Shown: positions 21,916 through 35,360 of the stretch, in pieces
How the letters are laid out: each line of letters begins with the position of its first letter
How positions within the stretch are numbered: the first letter of the stretch is position 1
IMG/VR virus record: IMGVR_UViG_3300037508_000029
Coordinates: 1 to 41,306 of that record
Length of the DNA: 41,306 nucleotides
From: a virus
Direction: 5' to 3' (one strand)
Notes under the pieces: generated by a model
What the model was told of the DNA's origin: nothing
Database searches by the model: none
What the model saw: the letters and a program-made list of their open reading frames with translations, nothing else
Position numbers and translations under genes: made by a program

Positions 21916-22815
21916 TTAGCCTAGGCCGCCGAGCGGCGTTCCATTGAGTTCTTTTCCTTTGTTCAACATGAGTTTTAGCCTTAGCAAGGCAGCCCGCTCG
22001 ACCTGCTGCAGGCGCGTACCTGATACGCCAGTGGCAGTCTCTAGTTCACGCCATGACACCGGCTTTTGTAGCCTTCGATTTTTGATGACATACTTTGACC
22101 TATCGTCGAGGTACTCATCCATTAGGTCCATCATCTCTTGCGCTTGATGGCTGATACTTAGGTCGTCAAAGTCAACTGTTGATTGCGGGTCAGCGATAAG
22201 ATCAATCAACGTAACGCCATCATTGTTGATGGGTGACATATCCAAGCTGCATACCGCATAACTGCGTTGCATTGCATCATAAATTACATTGATGTCAATG
22301 CCGATGTGATTTGCCACTTCATGCAGCGTTGGCGTACGGCAGAACTGATGGCCAAGCTCTGTGTGTACCCTAGCTATTTTTGTTAAAAGGTCATGCAGGC
22401 CAGTCGGCAACCTGATCATCGAATCATTCTGCGACAAGGCGCGTTGTATGCCTTGCTTAATCCACCAGTATGCGTAGGTCGAAAATTTGTAGCCGCGTGA
22501 ATAATCAAACAACTCAACCGCACGCGCTAGGCCGATGTTGCCCTCTTGGATCAGGTCCATAATTTCAAGCGACTTGCGCTTGCGGTTTTCGTACTTCTTT
22601 GCTACATGCACCACAAGTTGCAGGTTGCATTGAATAAATCGCTCGCGTGCGCGTTGGCCGCTACGCACTAGCCGATCTTCTGCTGCTGTTAGGTCACGCT
22701 CTAACTGCTGCAGCTCACGCATTTTGGCAATGCGCCTACCGTATTGAATCTCTTGGTCCACCGTGAGCAATGGAAACCTTGCGATCTCATTAAGGTAGTC
22801 TTTTAGTGATGACAT
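21916..22815 (-). CDS. RNA polymerase sigma-70 family factor
   Basis: The 299-residue protein would redirect the host RNA polymerase. Region 1.2 is at the N-terminus (SLKDYLNEIARFPLLTVDQE). Region 2 spans about residues 58-132, with 'LVVHVAKKYENR', 'LDLIQEGNIGLARAVELFDY'-like sequence and 'GYKFSTYAYWWIKQGIQRAL' for -10 recognition. Region 3 follows at about 133-205 and region 4 at about 225-285, with an HTH in 'SWRELETATGVSGTRLQQVE'. It lacks the long N-terminal region 1.1 of RpoD, like cyanobacterial group-2 sigmas. The gene comes late in the leftward unit and could switch on late structural genes. Confidence 0.92.
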   Translation of the reverse strand: MSSLKDYLNEIARFPLLTVDQEIQYGRRIAKMRELQQLERDLTAAEDRLVRSGQRARERFIQCNLQLVVHVAKKYENRKRKSLEIMDLIQEGNIGLARAVELFDYSRGYKFSTYAYWWIKQGIQRALSQNDSMIRLPTGLHDLLTKIARVHTELGHQFCRTPTLHEVANHIGIDINVIYDAMQRSYAVCSLDMSPINNDGVTLIDLIADPQSTVDFDDLSISHQAQEMMDLMDEYLDDRSKYVIKNRRLQKPVSWRELETATGVSGTRLQQVERAALLRLKLMLNKGKELNGTPLGGLG

Positions 22816-26920: not shown

Positions 26921-26948
26921 ATCCTACACCATGCGCCGCCCTCGTCAA
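26921..26948 (-). promoter_or_regulatory. Sigma-70-type promoter within the leftward unit
   Basis: On the minus strand, TTGACG (26943-26948) is followed by a 16-base spacer and TAGGAT (26921-26926). The -35 hexamer matches the consensus at 5 of 6 positions and the -10 at 4 of 6. The predicted start near 26914 gives a leader of about 34 bases before the ATG at 26880. It lies in the only gene gap of this part of the unit and would drive the recE-bet-ssb block separately from the helicases. Confidence 0.6.
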
Positions 26949-27292
26949 CCGTCAGCAGTCGTAATCCGTAACGCATCCTCAACTGACCGCGCCACACCAG
27001 CAATGCCGCCGGCTGCCTGCACCGCATCCAGCCACTGCTGCTGCTCTGGCCTCAGCCTGCCGGTTGGGGTCTTTACCTCAATGCTGAGGAACACAGCCAC
27101 CTGAGTGCCGACCATGTCGGGCGTCACCGTGACCGTCCGCCAGCCGATCAGGTCAGCGCTGCCCTTGCATAGGCCAAACTGCACCGGGCGGCCGTTCGCA
27201 TCCTTGAGCGTGCCGGTGTTGTTGCGGAAAACTTTGGTATCGCCGTGGCTGATGGCCAGCCGGATCTCCTGCTGAATGCGCTGCTCGCTCAC
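26945..27292 (-). CDS. VRR-NUC domain nuclease
   Basis: The 115-residue protein is a stand-alone VRR-NUC (PD-(D/E)XK) nuclease. Conserved elements are Glu9, 'NGRPVQFGLCKGSADLIGW' (Asp47), 'FLSIEVKTPTGRL' (Glu72, Lys74) and 'QQQWL' (Gln84). This family includes the FAN1 nuclease domain and phage proteins proposed to cut branched DNA. It starts at GTG, overlapping the upstream stop as GTGA. It is encoded beside the helicases, with which such nucleases are often paired in phages. Confidence 0.9.
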   Translation of the reverse strand: MSEQRIQQEIRLAISHGDTKVFRNNTGTLKDANGRPVQFGLCKGSADLIGWRTVTVTPDMVGTQVAVFLSIEVKTPTGRLRPEQQQWLDAVQAAGGIAGVARSVEDALRITTADG

Positions 27293-27612
27293 ACGAAGTC
27301 ATCCATCCACATCTGCAATGCGCAATCTACAACATCACTAGCATCAGCATTTTGGCCATTCTCTTGCAGCCTGTTAACGTATCTTTTAAGTTTTGAGTAT
27401 GTCATTGGTCTAACATACCACGCGCATTGCTTCCATGTAGCTCTTTTGCTTTCGCCATCCGACGGCTTCAGCCCCCGTAAGCCAATTGCCTCTTTTTGTT
27501 CTTTACCGTCAACTTCAATAACTTGGGAATCATACCAAGCTTCAACTAGCGCAGATATGGCGTCAGGAAGTGATACGCCTTCAAGATTGAGTGAAAATGT
27601 GTAGCGGTTCAT
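27289..27612 (-). CDS. Unknown protein between helicase and nuclease genes
   Basis: From ATG 27612 (ATGA overlap with the helicase stop) the protein has 107 residues, MNRYTFSLNLEGVSLPDAIS then 'ALVEAWYDSQVIEVDG', 'RATWKQCAWYVRPMTYSKLK' and a helical end. Its DNA is visibly more AT-rich than the helicase and nuclease genes on both sides, which suggests a later insertion. It is coupled to the nuclease by GTGA. No family is recognised. Confidence 0.72.
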   Translation of the reverse strand: MNRYTFSLNLEGVSLPDAISALVEAWYDSQVIEVDGKEQKEAIGLRGLKPSDGESKRATWKQCAWYVRPMTYSKLKRYVNRLQENGQNADASDVVDCALQMWMDDFV

Positions 27613-28970
27613 TTGACTTTGCTCCATTGTCCTTTGGTTTGACGGGCGGCCATGACATGCTTTGCCCATGCCACTGGGTTTTTGTACCCCCGGCTTTGGC
27701 CTAGCGCAATCAGATCCTGCAGCGATTGCGCGCCACCTTGCTCCCGCTTGGCCTGCTGCCTTTGAAGCTCCACCAACTCCCCTTCAACCTGCTGCAGCTC
27801 GCGTACCTCAGCGGCGAAGGTATGGCCGCACTCACCGCATTGCTTAGCCTGGCTGGCCATTGCAGCGAAGCACTGCGGGCACACCTTGACGCTGGGCGCT
27901 TTCTCCCGGTCACGCTTGGCTAGGCCCTCTAAGGTCCACTCACGCGGCTCCAAGTGGTGGCCAAGCCTGAGCGTGTTGCCGACGTGATCCAACACCACTG
28001 CAGCAGCCTTGCCGGGTGATGGTCTGAGGCAGCGACCAATCATCTGCAGGTGCAGGCTGGTGCTAGCGGTAGGCCTTAACAGGATGCAGCCGCCGACTGA
28101 GGGCACGTCAACGCCCTCACCGATGAGCGCGCAACTGGTCAGCACCTTGAGCCGACCGGTACCTAACGCCTGCAGCAGGTCACGCCGTTGCTCGCTGGTC
28201 ATGCTGCCGTCGATGCTGGCGGCTGGGATGCCAGCACTTATAAATAGACGTGCCACCGCCCCGGCATGGGCCACTGAGCAGCAGAACGCAATTGCCGTCT
28301 GCCCTGGCAGGTGTTTGCGGTAATGCGACAGGCAGTCGCCCATGATCGTGCCGATCCGGTGCTCAGCCTCACGGGTGTCGAAGTCACCCATCCGCTTGCG
28401 CAGGCCGATGGTGTCAAAGCCCGGTGGCGCTAGCACTCGTGCAGGCGCAAGGTAGCCGTTATCGGTCAGCCACTGCGCGCTGGGGCCTTCCACCATTGCC
28501 TGGTAATGCTCGCTAAGGCCGCGGCCATCAAGCCTGATTGGCGTTGCGGTGACGCCCAGCAGATGCGCTTGGTGGAAGTGCTCAAGCACCTTGGCCCAGG
28601 TGCCTGCATTGCTGTGGTGCGCCTCGTCGATGATCACTAACTGGAAGAAGTCACGCGGCAGTTTGTGGAGCCTGCGGGCAAGGGTTTGAACTGATGCCAC
28701 CTGCACTGCTGCACTCAAATCCATGGCTCGGTTGGCGGCAATCACACCATGAGGCATTGGCAATGCGCGGCACGCCTGGTCCAGCAGCTCCTGACGGTGC
28801 ACCGCGATCAGCACGCGGTTGCCCTTTTTGGCGGCAGCCTGGGCGATGTAGCTGAAGCACACCGTTTTGCCGCCACCGGTCGGCAGCACTGCCAGTACTG
28901 TGCGCTTGCCGAGTTGGTACTGCAGGCGGATGTCGGTGATGAGCTGTTGTTGGTAGGGGCGGAGGTTCAC
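27609..28970 (-). CDS. SF2 DEAH-box helicase with zinc ribbon
   Basis: The 453-residue protein is an SF2 helicase of the type III restriction/UvrB-like fold: Walker A 'LPTGGGKT' (29-36), DEAH (115-118), TATP (141-144), then 'LTSCALIGEGVDVP' and 'QMIGRCLRPSPGK' for motifs V and VI. Near residues 380-400 a CPQC...CGEC zinc ribbon follows, then a charged coiled coil. It probably unwinds or remodels phage replication or recombination intermediates. It starts at GTG (28970), overlapping the upstream stop by 4 bases. Confidence 0.9.
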   Translation of the reverse strand: MNLRPYQQQLITDIRLQYQLGKRTVLAVLPTGGGKTVCFSYIAQAAAKKGNRVLIAVHRQELLDQACRALPMPHGVIAANRAMDLSAAVQVASVQTLARRLHKLPRDFFQLVIIDEAHHSNAGTWAKVLEHFHQAHLLGVTATPIRLDGRGLSEHYQAMVEGPSAQWLTDNGYLAPARVLAPPGFDTIGLRKRMGDFDTREAEHRIGTIMGDCLSHYRKHLPGQTAIAFCCSVAHAGAVARLFISAGIPAASIDGSMTSEQRRDLLQALGTGRLKVLTSCALIGEGVDVPSVGGCILLRPTASTSLHLQMIGRCLRPSPGKAAAVVLDHVGNTLRLGHHLEPREWTLEGLAKRDREKAPSVKVCPQCFAAMASQAKQCGECGHTFAAEVRELQQVEGELVELQRQQAKREQGGAQSLQDLIALGQSRGYKNPVAWAKHVMAARQTKGQWSKVK

Positions 28971-31225
28971 ACCAGCTCTCCCTGCTTATGCGACTCAACC
29001 GACTGCAAATTCTTGACTGCGCAGTTGAAGTAGCTGGGCTTCAGTTCAAAGCCGACGAAGCGTCGCTGCATTTGCAGGCTGACGTAACCCTCGCTGCCGA
29101 TGCCAGCGAACGGGCTGAGCACCAGATCGTCTGGATTGCTCCATAACTGCAGGCCGCGGCGGATCACCTCAAGCTGCAGCGGGCAGATGTGGCGCTCGTC
29201 CTCATTGGCGCGGGCGCTGCGGTACTGCAGCGTGTCTGATGGGTTGATGTCCATCCACACCGGGCTGGCGTAGCGCTGCCAGATGTTGATGCTGTCTTTG
29301 ATGGCGTCGCCTGTTTTGGCTGGTGGGTTCTCACCAGCAAACTCAGTGAACGGCCCTGCGCATGGCTCGGGGTTGTCGCCCAGCTTGCGCACAGTCACCA
29401 GATAGTCAGGGATGCCCTGGCGGCTCAGGGCTGAGTCCTTGCGCACTTGCTTGTGCAGCAGGCCGATCGCCTTGGTGCGCTGCATGGCCGTGACGGGATC
29501 CTTCCAGATGCAGACCTCTGAATGGAAGACAAAGCCAGCCGCCTGGAAGATGCGCAGCATGTCACCACGGAAATCCTTCACGCCGATAAAGCCATCGCGT
29601 TCTTTGCTACTGGGCAGGTTCATGCAGTGGAAGCTGATCAGCCGGCCAGGCATCAGCACGCGATGCAGCTCCTTGGCCAGGTAGACAAAGTGATCAAAGA
29701 ACTCCTGATCGTTGCGGCTGTTGCCCATGTCGCGGTCGCTGTTGGAGTAGGTATACAGCGACGCAAACGGCGGACTAAAGATGCTGTAGTGGATGCTATC
29801 CGCGTCAAGTTGTTTGATGCTCTCCACGCAGTCGCCCATGTACATATCCCAGTTGTCGCCTGACTGGTGCTCCGTAATGTGCGGCGCAACCTGACGCTGG
29901 ATCTTCTTGAGCTGTTCCATTGTTTGTTGTTTCATGATGACGACCATTGATTCAGCCATGGCGATGCTGTCCGCTTCTTTGCGGCGGATGTTCTCGATGA
30001 CGCGGCCCTCGGCCACGTCGTAGATGATGTGCGCATTAACTGGTTGCTGCTGGCCAAATCGCCAGCACCTACGGATGGCCTGATAGAAAGCCTCGTAGCT
30101 GTGGGATAGGCCAACAAACGCGACGTTGTGACAGCCCTGGAAGTTGAGGCCGAAGCCGAAGATGCTGGGCTTACTGACAAGTACGCGAATCTTGCCATCC
30201 TGAAAGTCGATCGCAGCACGGCGCTTGTGATCATCGTTGTCGCTGCCTGACACCTCGACCGCGCCATTAATGGCAGCAGTCAGCGCTTTGGACTCATCAT
30301 TGAGATCACACCAGATCAGCCATTGCTCAGTGCTGTCATTGGCTAGGGCTGCGGCTGCATCGACGCGCATCTGCAGCGATGCCTTGCGGACGTGCCGCTG
30401 ATCGCTCAGAGTGCGGGCTTCCATGGCGAACAGCGCCATCTGGCCAGCGTCATCGGCCATGGCCTCGCGTGGTGTCTCAACTGTGCAGTCTTGAATGGAT
30501 AGCTCGGGCAGGATGAAGTTGCCGTCGTCGTAGCCCAGGTCTGACGGCTTGCGGATGGTGACGGCCCAGCTGCAGACCCACTCCCAGAACTTGGACTGCG
30601 CGTGTCCCTTGAGCCGCCACTTACTGGTGTCGCCGCCGTCATGGACGAAGAACATGGCCAGCATCTCGGTCCTGGTCATCACGCCGATGAACTCGGCATG
30701 GTTGCCCAGCTCCATGTGATCGTTGGGTGCTGGCGTGGCTGAGCAGGCCAACCGGAATGGCGTTTGGCTGAAGCTGGAGATGATCTGGTTGCGGATCTTG
30801 CCGGTGTACGCCTTGAGGATGCTGCTCTCGTCGAGCACCACTCCATCGAATGCGGTCGGGTCGAAATGGCTGAGCTTTTCGTAGTTGGTGATCGTGATGC
30901 CGGGCTTGACCTCGGCCTGGGTTGCAGCGAACGCGCACGGAATGCCGAACTTGCCGCCCTCGCGGACGGTCTGGTGGGCTACAGCTAGTGGTGCCAGGAC
31001 CAACACGTTGCCGCCTGTGTGCTGATGCACCTGATGCGCCCATTCAAGCTGCATAGCGGTTTTGCCCATGCCGCAATCAGCCCAGATGCAAAACCTGCCA
31101 ACACGGCAGGCCATGGTCACGATGTCCCGCTGAAATGGGAACAGCGGCGCAATGAAGCTAGGCGGGTCAAATCCTGCAGGCGCGCAGGCAGTGGATTTTG
31201 AAGCTAGGAAGTCTTGGTAAGTCAT
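28967..31225 (-). CDS. SNF2-type helicase fused to DNA methyltransferase
   Basis: The 752-residue protein joins two enzymes. Residues about 20-430 are a SNF2/SF2 ATPase: Walker A 'CGMGKT' (51-56), DESS (132-135), 'CSATP' (161-165), 'GFGLNFQGC' (357-365) and 'QAIRRCWRFGQ' (382-392). Residues about 455-740 are an amino-methyltransferase with motif IV 'SPPF' (484-487) before the SAM motif 'FAGIGS' (706-711), the beta-class order. The product would be N4-methylcytosine or N6-methyladenine. No separate restriction enzyme is seen beside it, apart from the VRR-NUC two genes on. It is the first gene of the leftward unit, so it is expressed early. Confidence 0.92.
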   Translation of the reverse strand: MTYQDFLASKSTACAPAGFDPPSFIAPLFPFQRDIVTMACRVGRFCIWADCGMGKTAMQLEWAHQVHQHTGGNVLVLAPLAVAHQTVREGGKFGIPCAFAATQAEVKPGITITNYEKLSHFDPTAFDGVVLDESSILKAYTGKIRNQIISSFSQTPFRLACSATPAPNDHMELGNHAEFIGVMTRTEMLAMFFVHDGGDTSKWRLKGHAQSKFWEWVCSWAVTIRKPSDLGYDDGNFILPELSIQDCTVETPREAMADDAGQMALFAMEARTLSDQRHVRKASLQMRVDAAAALANDSTEQWLIWCDLNDESKALTAAINGAVEVSGSDNDDHKRRAAIDFQDGKIRVLVSKPSIFGFGLNFQGCHNVAFVGLSHSYEAFYQAIRRCWRFGQQQPVNAHIIYDVAEGRVIENIRRKEADSIAMAESMVVIMKQQTMEQLKKIQRQVAPHITEHQSGDNWDMYMGDCVESIKQLDADSIHYSIFSPPFASLYTYSNSDRDMGNSRNDQEFFDHFVYLAKELHRVLMPGRLISFHCMNLPSSKERDGFIGVKDFRGDMLRIFQAAGFVFHSEVCIWKDPVTAMQRTKAIGLLHKQVRKDSALSRQGIPDYLVTVRKLGDNPEPCAGPFTEFAGENPPAKTGDAIKDSINIWQRYASPVWMDINPSDTLQYRSARANEDERHICPLQLEVIRRGLQLWSNPDDLVLSPFAGIGSEGYVSLQMQRRFVGFELKPSYFNCAVKNLQSVESHKQGELV

Positions 31226-31240
31226 AGGCCGTGTCAGGCC

Positions 31241-31268
31241 TTGCCAGCGTAGCAGCCGCTGCTACAGT
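31241..31268 (+). promoter_or_regulatory. Rightward promoter of the divergent control region
   Basis: TTGCCA (31241-31246) and TACAGT (31263-31268) are separated by 16 bases, close to a sigma-70 promoter. It would start transcription near 31275, 17 bases before the GTG of the RHH gene. The -10/-35 interval contains most of a perfect palindrome. No other gap in this region could hold the promoter for the replication genes. The hexamers are imperfect, so it is a candidate only. Confidence 0.5.
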
Positions 31269-31274
31269 GTGCAA
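31246..31274 (-). promoter_or_regulatory. Leftward promoter of the divergent control region
   Basis: On the minus strand, TTGCAC (31269-31274) and TACGCT (31246-31251) lie 17 bases apart, pointing toward the SNF2-methyltransferase start at 31225. The -10 is weak (3 of 6). It overlaps the rightward candidate, so the two would compete for polymerase. The 66-base gap leaves little other room for a promoter. Confidence 0.4.
31249..31265. promoter_or_regulatory. Palindromic operator candidate
   Basis: GTAGCAG-CCG-CTGCTAC is a perfect 7+7 bp inverted repeat with a 3-base centre. It sits between the -35 and -10 of both divergent promoter candidates. A protein bound here could repress both units at once. 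The RHH protein encoded 27 bases downstream is the obvious candidate ligand, by analogy with Arc/CopG-type autorepression. Confidence 0.55.
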
Positions 31275-31291
31275 GCACCTAGCCCAGCACC

Positions 31292-31453
31292 GTGCGCCTG
31301 AGCCACCCAACCCATATACGTCTAACCGCCGACCAGATGCAGCGCCTTGACTCTTGGCGTGGTGACCGCATGAATCGTGCTACGGCCATCCGCCTGCTAT
31401 TGGATCAATCGCTGCGGTTGCATCTGGACGGCATCTTGCCAGCAACCAAATGA
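31292..31453 (+). CDS. RHH (Arc/CopG-like) regulator, GTG start
   Basis: A 53-residue frame from GTG 31292 reads MRLSHPTHIRLTADQMQRLD then 'SWRGDRMNRATAIRLLLDQS'. The strand 'HIRLTADQMQRLDSW' followed by 'NRATAIRLLLDQSLRL' is the ribbon-helix-helix pattern, with the second helix at 'RATAIRLLLDQS'. Its TGA overlaps the ATG of the primase gene (ATGA at 31450-31453). As the first gene downstream of the divergent control region it is a good candidate for an early-gene repressor. Confidence 0.75.
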   Translation: MRLSHPTHIRLTADQMQRLDSWRGDRMNRATAIRLLLDQSLRLHLDGILPATK

Positions 31454-34149: not shown

Positions 34150-34357
34150 TCCGGTTAATCACCCTGATCACTACACCGCCGGCAGCATCGAATGCATCGA
34201 TGCCATCCAAGCTGCGCTAACCCCCGAGCAGTTCATCGGCTACTGCCGTGGCAATGCCATCAAATACATCTGGCGCACCGACCGCAAAGGCGGCATCCAA
34301 GACCTTCAAAAAGCAATCTGGTATCTCAACCGTGCAATTCACAACCTGTCAATTTGA
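34142..34357 (+). CDS. DUF3310 family protein
   Basis: The 71-residue protein starts at GTG 34142, overlapping the upstream stop by 8 bases. It shows 'VNHPDHYTAGSIECIDAIQA', 'FIGYCRGNAIKYIWRTDRKG' and 'DLQKAIWYLNRAI', the hallmark of the DUF3310 family found widely in phages, sometimes labelled nucleotide kinase without solid evidence. A role in phage nucleotide metabolism is plausible but unproven. The 5' end of the clamp gene overlaps its 3' end. Confidence 0.85.
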   Translation: MSDPVNHPDHYTAGSIECIDAIQAALTPEQFIGYCRGNAIKYIWRTDRKGGIQDLQKAIWYLNRAIHNLSI

Positions 34358-35360
34358 CCTTGACAACGCCTTACGCACCATCGCGCCAGCAATTGGCGTT
34401 CGCAGCAGTCACCCAATCCTTGACTGCTGTCTGATTACCGCCGCCAACGGCACCATGTCCGTTACCGGCTTCAACCTAGACCTCGGCATCACCGTTACCG
34501 CACCAGCCGTCGTTGAAACCGCTGGCACCATCGCATTGCCGTATCGGCTTCTAGCGGGCCTTGTGAGCCGCATGGAGGCCGATGAGGCCGTCACCGTGCG
34601 TGATGGGGCTATCACGGCTTCTGGCGCGTCCTACGGCCTTGCAGGGCAGGATGCAGCGGATTACCCGGCGATGCCTGCTGTAGAGGCTCCTAGCGCTGAG
34701 CTAGCACTATCGGCTGGTGTACGCGCTTGCATGACCGCTGCCAGCACCGATGCAAGCAAGGCACTGCTGCAAGGCATTCACCTCGCTAACGGCTATATGC
34801 AGGCAACCGACGGTCATCGCCTCATGCGCTATGCCGTTGACCTGCCCGATGGCATCGACCTTGTGCTACCCGCCAGCACCATGAAGCTGCTGCAGGACCA
34901 CACCGTCACCATTGCCCACGCTGGTGGCCAAGCCGTCATCACAACCGACGATGGCATCACCATCTACAGCCGCATCCTTGACGGCACCTATCCCGATGTA
35001 GCCAAGCTCATTCCGCCAACCTTTGAGCACACCATCACCCTTGATCGCCTTCGCCTTACCCGTGCGCTAGAGCGTGTCGCCATCATCGGTGAAGTGGTCA
35101 AACTAGAGGCCACCACTGGCGCTATTGCCATCACCGCTGAAGCTGATGCCAACAATGGCAAGGAGCTTCTACTCGTTGAAGGCACCGCCAAAGGCACTTG
35201 GGCATTTAACGTCCATTACCTACTGGATGGCCTCAAGGCTTTCAAGGGGCATGACGCCGTTACGCTGTCAGCCAATGCGGCAACCACTCCCGTGGTATTG
35301 ACGCCTGCCGGCGTAGATGGTGTAACGTATCTTGTAATGCCTGTGCAAATTCGCACTTAA
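34332..35360 (+). CDS. dnaN: DNA polymerase III beta sliding clamp
   Basis: From GTG 34332 the protein has 342 residues with the three-domain clamp layout. Markers are 'MQFTTCQFDLDNALRTI' with 'SSHPILDCCLITA' in domain 1, 'LLQGIHLANGYMQATDGHRL' in domain 2 and 'YLVMPVQIR' at the C-terminus, matching the usual Y-x-MP-x(R/ )L-like end. It encircles DNA and tethers polymerase. A longer start at 34248 overlaps DUF3310 by 110 bases and is not supported by the alignment pattern. It is slightly shorter than bacterial clamps. No phage polymerase is seen. Confidence 0.88.
   Translation: MQFTTCQFDLDNALRTIAPAIGVRSSHPILDCCLITAANGTMSVTGFNLDLGITVTAPAVVETAGTIALPYRLLAGLVSRMEADEAVTVRDGAITASGASYGLAGQDAADYPAMPAVEAPSAELALSAGVRACMTAASTDASKALLQGIHLANGYMQATDGHRLMRYAVDLPDGIDLVLPASTMKLLQDHTVTIAHAGGQAVITTDDGITIYSRILDGTYPDVAKLIPPTFEHTITLDRLRLTRALERVAIIGEVVKLEATTGAIAITAEADANNGKELLLVEGTAKGTWAFNVHYLLDGLKAFKGHDAVTLSANAATTPVVLTPAGVDGVTYLVMPVQIRT

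Follow-up and report, generated by a model that had tools for sequence, protein, structure and literature searches.

An SNF2-type ATPase fused to a beta-class DNA methyltransferase in a cyanophage belongs to a widespread family whose halves stay together as one gene or two

Why would a phage carry an SNF2-type ATPase and a DNA methyltransferase in a single polypeptide? The question is posed by a 752-amino-acid (aa) protein encoded at 28967..31225 (−) in IMG/VR record IMGVR_UViG_3300037508_000029, of which positions 1 to 41,306 (41,306 nt, here the window, whose positions serve as coordinates) were analysed. An earlier note on this DNA had suggested that a translocase-coupled methyltransferase modifies phage DNA to evade host restriction, or that it acts with a nearby nuclease as a modification/degradation pair. 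Our analysis places the protein in a widespread and already recognized family, whose two halves stay together as one gene or as two neighbours.

The gene opens with ATG and contains zero internal stops, and translation, motif positions and Pfam all agree with the chain as first described, intact over 752 residues with superfamily 2 (SF2) ATPase motifs at 51–392, SPPF at 484 and FAGIGS at 706. A sequencing error or chimeric join of two genes, which the earlier note had named as fatal to its claim, is excluded because 80 IMG/VR contigs contain this chain (90–100% identity, with the match covering residues 1–752 in nearly all), and so does an isolate, Synechococcus phage S-CBS3, whose gp40 has the same fusion at 85% identity over the full length. 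The phage is of the Synechococcus S-CBS3 kind, with DNA identity to S-CBS3 at megablast level limited to the fused gene (9% of a 24-kb query, 82%). Across 76 sequences the median ratio of nonsynonymous to synonymous substitution (dN/dS) stands at 0.086 in the helicase half and 0.073 in the methylase half; selection therefore keeps both.

Pfam assigns ResIII (2.5e-6), Helicase_C (3.2e-7) and N6_N4_Mtase (PF01555, 4.1e-15) to the protein, and structure prediction, which had been proposed as a check, returns an SNF2-type motor followed by a methylase resembling TTHA0409. The AlphaFold2 model (43 aligned homologues; mean predicted local distance difference test score (pLDDT) 85.6, predicted template modelling score 0.78) shows a long helix at 404–439 and a pLDDT dip at 442–446 between the halves. 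This helical linker or boundary (residues 404–457, 29855..30016 (−)) holds the lowest conservation between the halves, with a top-residue frequency of about 0.3 in blocks 421–460. The ATPase half (residues 1–440, about 440 in length, 29906..31225 (−)) carries Walker A GMGKT (52–56, 31058..31072 (−)), motif II LDESS (131–135, with DESS at 132–135, 30821..30835 (−)), SATP (162–165) and motif VI QAIRRCWRFGQ (382–392, 30050..30082 (−)). Across 43 fused homologues G52, G54 and K55, D132 and E133, and Q382, R386, R389 and Q392 are invariant. The best alignments of residues 20–435 are to the Ino80, ISW1, SNF2h and CSB motors (Z 28–32), with VIA-align matching the Ino80 ATPase at Z 32.1 and a root mean square deviation of 3.1 over 375 residues; Mot1 and RapA are also among the fold matches. 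The predicted structure thus combines an SNF2 fold with SF2 motifs, as in SWI2/SNF2 proteins, and we put structural matches to DEAD-box and RIG-I-like helicases down to the SF2 core common to all. The fold points to a double-stranded DNA (dsDNA) translocase instead of an unwinding helicase. SNF2 motors move on dsDNA without unwinding it, as is established and is argued in PMC5512222, so ‘helicase’, the label used here for this half, is better read as ‘translocase’.

The methylase half (residues 458–752, 28970..29854 (−)) matches TTHA0409 both as the best Protein Data Bank (PDB) profile hit (2.3e-26) and by Foldseek (target-normalized template modelling score 0.81). Its motif IV, SPPF (484–487, 29765..29776 (−)), precedes motif I, FAGIGS (706–711, 29093..29110 (−)), the S-adenosylmethionine-binding motif. 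This order, with serine first in motif IV, is that of a beta-class N4-cytosine enzyme, and the domain call, domain order and beta class given previously all hold. S484, P486 and F487 are invariant across the 43 fused homologues, and the wider family, clustered at 80% identity, has S-x-P-F in 201/201 clusters (SPPF in 151, S[I/V/S/L]PF in 50). Serine at this first position is typical of N4-cytosine enzymes, and in alignment the N4-cytosine enzyme M.PvuII also carries SPPF. The product is probably N4-methylcytosine, although the PDB profile matches of this half take in both N6-methyladenine and N4-methylcytosine enzymes. Strong variability is confined to a short segment around residues 614–645 (29291..29386 (−)), where a target recognition region would sit and where the methylase is least conserved (0.22, block 621–640). 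Elsewhere, the surface that might recognize the target is conserved among cyanophage, methanogen-associated and other members, a pattern that points tentatively to a target that is shared or relaxed and not to mimicry of one host's enzyme.

How general is the union? Phage records, IMG/VR and one-per-species prokaryote genomes yielded 523 loci, the window included; some contigs were fetched twice, making the 201 clusters the better measure. A methylase lies within or beside the helicase gene in 519 of the 523 (296 fused, 219 in the order helicase–methylase and 4 reversed). The other four are contigs that end 97 or 283 bp past the helicase open reading frame (ORF; two loci) or are cut within the helicase with the methylase present (two loci). 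This pairing is no product of the search, because three scans queried the helicase half alone. By cluster, 111 are fused, 90 split and 0 mixed, so the fusion order for which the earlier note proposed a search is not unusual (111/201). The distance matrices of the two halves correlate at r 0.79 over 151 members, where 500 shuffles gave at most 0.16; the halves therefore travel together and seldom swap partners, although the shared descent of neighbouring genes adds to this figure. Together, and over hundreds of loci in phages and prophages, these observations mark the halves as an obligate two-part machine. The window protein is itself a member of the phage helicase–methylase dyad family (the S-CBS3 gp40 or PHROG 16-67 type), being homologous over its whole length with the catalytic motifs of both halves intact.

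The arrangement of the pair changes readily. On a tree of the SPPF subfamily (68 rows), the well-supported branches require the state to have switched between fused and split at least 11 times (19 by parsimony), and the smallest well-supported set around the window protein contains 16 fused members alongside 14 split ones. Split junctions show frame offsets of 50/24/14 over 88 clusters, with a 4-nt start/stop overlap in 31 of the 88. The varying frame and these overlaps rule out programmed frameshifting or stop readthrough as a general origin and identify the split forms as ordinary translationally coupled genes.

Several members depart from the common layout. The methylase gene lies ahead of the helicase yet close to it in loci L087 (2995–6370, Alteromonas phage XX1924), L192, L193 and L194, and in Flavobacterium phage snusmum6-3 the two genes are separated by one for an endonuclease (L095, 4527–5018), as though a homing gene had inserted itself there. 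A second subfamily (L096–L099, L324–L402) has SIPF, SVPF, SSPF or SLPF at motif IV, its first proline lost, with a methylase longer by about 80 aa, and is fused in 47 of 50 clusters. Matches run about 1 kb longer in fused homologues L349, L358, L395 and L396 and in Mycobacterium phages Squirty/Dante (H97, H98), possibly through inteins. PMC5050341 describes inteins in the N6_N4 methylases of mycobacteriophages from clusters E, F1 and F3, and a figure legend there gives DNMT-1 the domains DEXDc, HELICc and N6_N4_Mtase; the intein-bearing mycobacteriophage members appear to be candidate matches to those proteins.

In the window the fused gene is, as originally stated, the first of a leftward unit. 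A 224-bp intergenic region (31226..31449), the presumed start of the unit, lies between it and the divergently oriented VapE/PriCT-2 primase-helicase gene at 31450, and a scan of this region found no minus-strand sigma-70-like site. The second SF2 helicase and the VRR-NUC nuclease said to lie downstream are both real. The former (27609..28970 (−), 453 aa, GTG start) overlaps the stop of the fused gene by 4 nt, is RadD/YejH-like (NCBIfam RadD 1.5e-38, under that model's cut-off) and bears a C-terminal cysteine cluster. An intervening 126-aa ORF with no Pfam match (27289..27669 (−)) leads to the 115-aa VRR-NUC protein (26945..27292 (−), PF08774 4.7e-12), and a RecE-like exonuclease, RecT and a single-stranded DNA-binding protein (SSB) follow farther along. 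The RadD-like gene stands directly after the fused gene in 72/72 close relatives having 1.5 kb of downstream DNA; it was detected by tblastn in 9/201 family clusters (a lower bound, given short flanks and a single-sequence query) and not in S-CBS3, despite the same fusion there. VRR-NUC lies within about 4 kb in 69/80 close relatives as against 5/118 diverse family loci, counted in flanks of only about 4–5 kb, and is likewise undetected in S-CBS3. What the family conserves is therefore the dyad itself, with the nuclease a local neighbour. The leftward unit also encodes a sigma-70 family factor (21916–22815 (−); Pfam regions 1.2, 2 and 3), and S-CBS3 has a ‘group 2 RNA polymerase sigma factor’. 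On the other strand, a homologue of the DNA polymerase III beta-clamp with three Pfam clamp domains is found at 34248–35360 (+) in this lambda-like siphovirus genome; such phage-borne clamps are uncommon.

What might the machine do? We put at about an even chance that an ATP-driven dsDNA translocase carries the methylase along phage DNA, marking bases, most likely against host restriction. What the data show directly is the two folds (through structure prediction and fold comparison), catalytic residues that are intact and conserved, strong purifying selection on each half and their obligate pairing; from there we infer translocation, the N4-cytosine product, phage DNA as the substrate and protection as the benefit. 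Encoded first in the replication/recombination unit, the protein would grip dsDNA and travel along it through its N-terminal SNF2-type ATPase, using ATP, while the beta-class methyltransferase, tethered C-terminally by the helical linker, would mark bases (probably as N4-methylcytosine) on the DNA being tracked. Newly replicated phage DNA would most likely be marked in this way, and host restriction enzymes would then not cut it. The position of the gene ahead of the RadD-like helicase, VRR-NUC, the RecE-like exonuclease and RecT is in favour. Several points weigh on the other side: the literature yielded no paper that tests a family member and no demonstrated activity for any; the motif IV sequence is no proof of which base is methylated; the variable segment of the methylase is short; and P1 DarB, a phage ATPase–methylase protein, protects without a defined mechanism, with plasmid tests of it confounded (PMC11109961). 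Nor need protection be the purpose, because a phage methylase such as AH14a_p05 can be present where the host has no corresponding restriction enzyme (PMC4936722). Carried further, the translocating-methylase reading would make the family a nuclease-free, motor-driven marking machine, a processive N4-cytosine methylase in which the SNF2 motor takes the place of a large target-recognition domain, allowing phage DNA to be modified broadly in hosts that range from cyanobacteria to methanogens; we offer this wider version tentatively.

The same neighbourhood could speak for a regulator of replication, repair or transcription in which restriction has no part, the motor remodelling replication or recombination intermediates and the methylase marking origin, packaging or promoter sites. 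The gene heads a unit that includes the RadD-like helicase (next in line in 72/72 close relatives), VRR-NUC, the RecE-like exonuclease, RecT and SSB, it faces a VapE-like primase-helicase, and AH14a provides a phage N4-methylcytosine methylase that lacks a matching host enzyme. The dyad nevertheless stays while its neighbours change, as the RadD-like gene in 9/201 clusters (that tblastn lower bound) illustrates, and we regard this regulatory role as rather unlikely. A non-catalytic anti-restriction effect, in which the protein obstructs restriction complexes through its presence or movement on DNA, would suit SNF2 motors, which displace DNA-bound proteins (Mot1 and RapA are among the fold matches), and would resemble the protection in cis by DarB, whose mechanism is undefined (PMC5512222, PMC11109961). 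Methylation would then be secondary, which sits poorly with the invariance of S484, P486 and F487 across the 43 fused homologues and with purifying selection on the methylase half that is the same as on the motor, and we judge it improbable.

The nuclease half of the earlier note's interpretation fares worst, while its translocase-coupled methylase marking phage DNA remains the best reading. Under a modification/degradation scheme the methylase would mark phage DNA, and VRR-NUC and the helicase would destroy unmarked host or rival DNA. VRR-NUC does lie three genes downstream, recurs in 69/80 close relatives and is also near the split pair of freshwater Synechococcus phage S-LBS1 and the reversed pair of XX1924. 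It is, however, a common nuclease of phage replication modules, and its presence near just 5/118 diverse loci (within those 4–5-kb flanks), with none detected in S-CBS3, rules it out as a conserved partner. We consider this scheme very improbable.

Unions of an SNF2 motor with a methylase are frequent in phages, and the literature found shows motor-driven methylation for none. The present family is compact (about 750 aa), nuclease-free and non-polyvalent, it permits mutations in the motor independently of those in the methylase, and it occurs naturally in fused and split forms; these features make the translocating-methylase idea directly testable. Because it matters little here whether the pair is one gene or two, annotation pipelines should treat it as one functional unit.

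Among known systems the closest is S-CBS3 gp40, annotated ‘DNA methylase’ (ADF42498.1, 754 aa), which has the same fusion and domain order at 85% full-length identity, in a genome where, unlike the window, neither the RadD-like helicase nor VRR-NUC is detectable. SEA-PHAGES actinophages encode the same domains in the same order as ‘DNA helicase/methylase’ or as adjacent ‘DNA helicase’ and ‘DNA methylase’ genes (PHROG 16, 62, 67), with pairs such as those of Ramsey and Holliday at lower identity (about 43–46%) and the SuperGrey/RR1-A/CF63a branch differing more (about 30% identity, S[I/V/S/L]PF in place of SPPF, a longer methylase). S-LBS1 A50 and A49 form the same pair among similar neighbours (a second SF2 helicase, VRR-NUC and an annealing protein) as two genes with a 4-nt overlap where the window has one; the S-LBS1 helicases and methylase have been named as separate genes (PMC6157547).

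More distant systems share the principle. In type III restriction–modification (EcoP1 Mod/Res) an SF2 motor works with a methylase, but from separate genes and with an endonuclease domain in Res (PF19778); Pfam finds no such domain in the fused protein, which rules this assignment out. DISARM likewise joins an SNF2 helicase (DrmD) with a methylase (DrmMI). The DISARM/BREX comparison suggested earlier brought little: a PADLOC scan of proteins from the leftward unit gave marginal matches of the motor to BrxHI (0.0019) and DrmD (E 0.0026), no other DISARM match and no core gene (DrmA, DrmB, DrmC), so we do not file the protein under either system and DISARM membership is unsupported. P1 DarB, which is packaged in the virion, also unites an SNF2-type ATPase with an amino-methylase in one phage protein, but over 2255 aa, with a gamma-class N6_Mtase N-terminal and the ATPase behind. 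The DarB methylase gives no match to the family profile and its ATPase a weak one; with the methylase halves unrelated by profile, and with no N-terminal gamma-class methylase in the window protein, we rejected homology to DarB. DarB is nonetheless the archetype of the ‘DNA methylase-helicase dyad’, the subject of a section of PMC5512222 on polyvalent proteins, which reports such ATPases widely coupled to methylases in phages, as one polypeptide or as neighbouring genes, and proposes for DarB-type dyads a translocating-methylase role comparable to the one preferred here. Pairing of this kind is thus already known, from the published dyad (DarB and others) and from actinophage records labelled ‘DNA helicase/methylase’; new here are the count of pairing over 523 loci, the at least 11 switches between fused and split forms, and the agreeing trees of the two halves.

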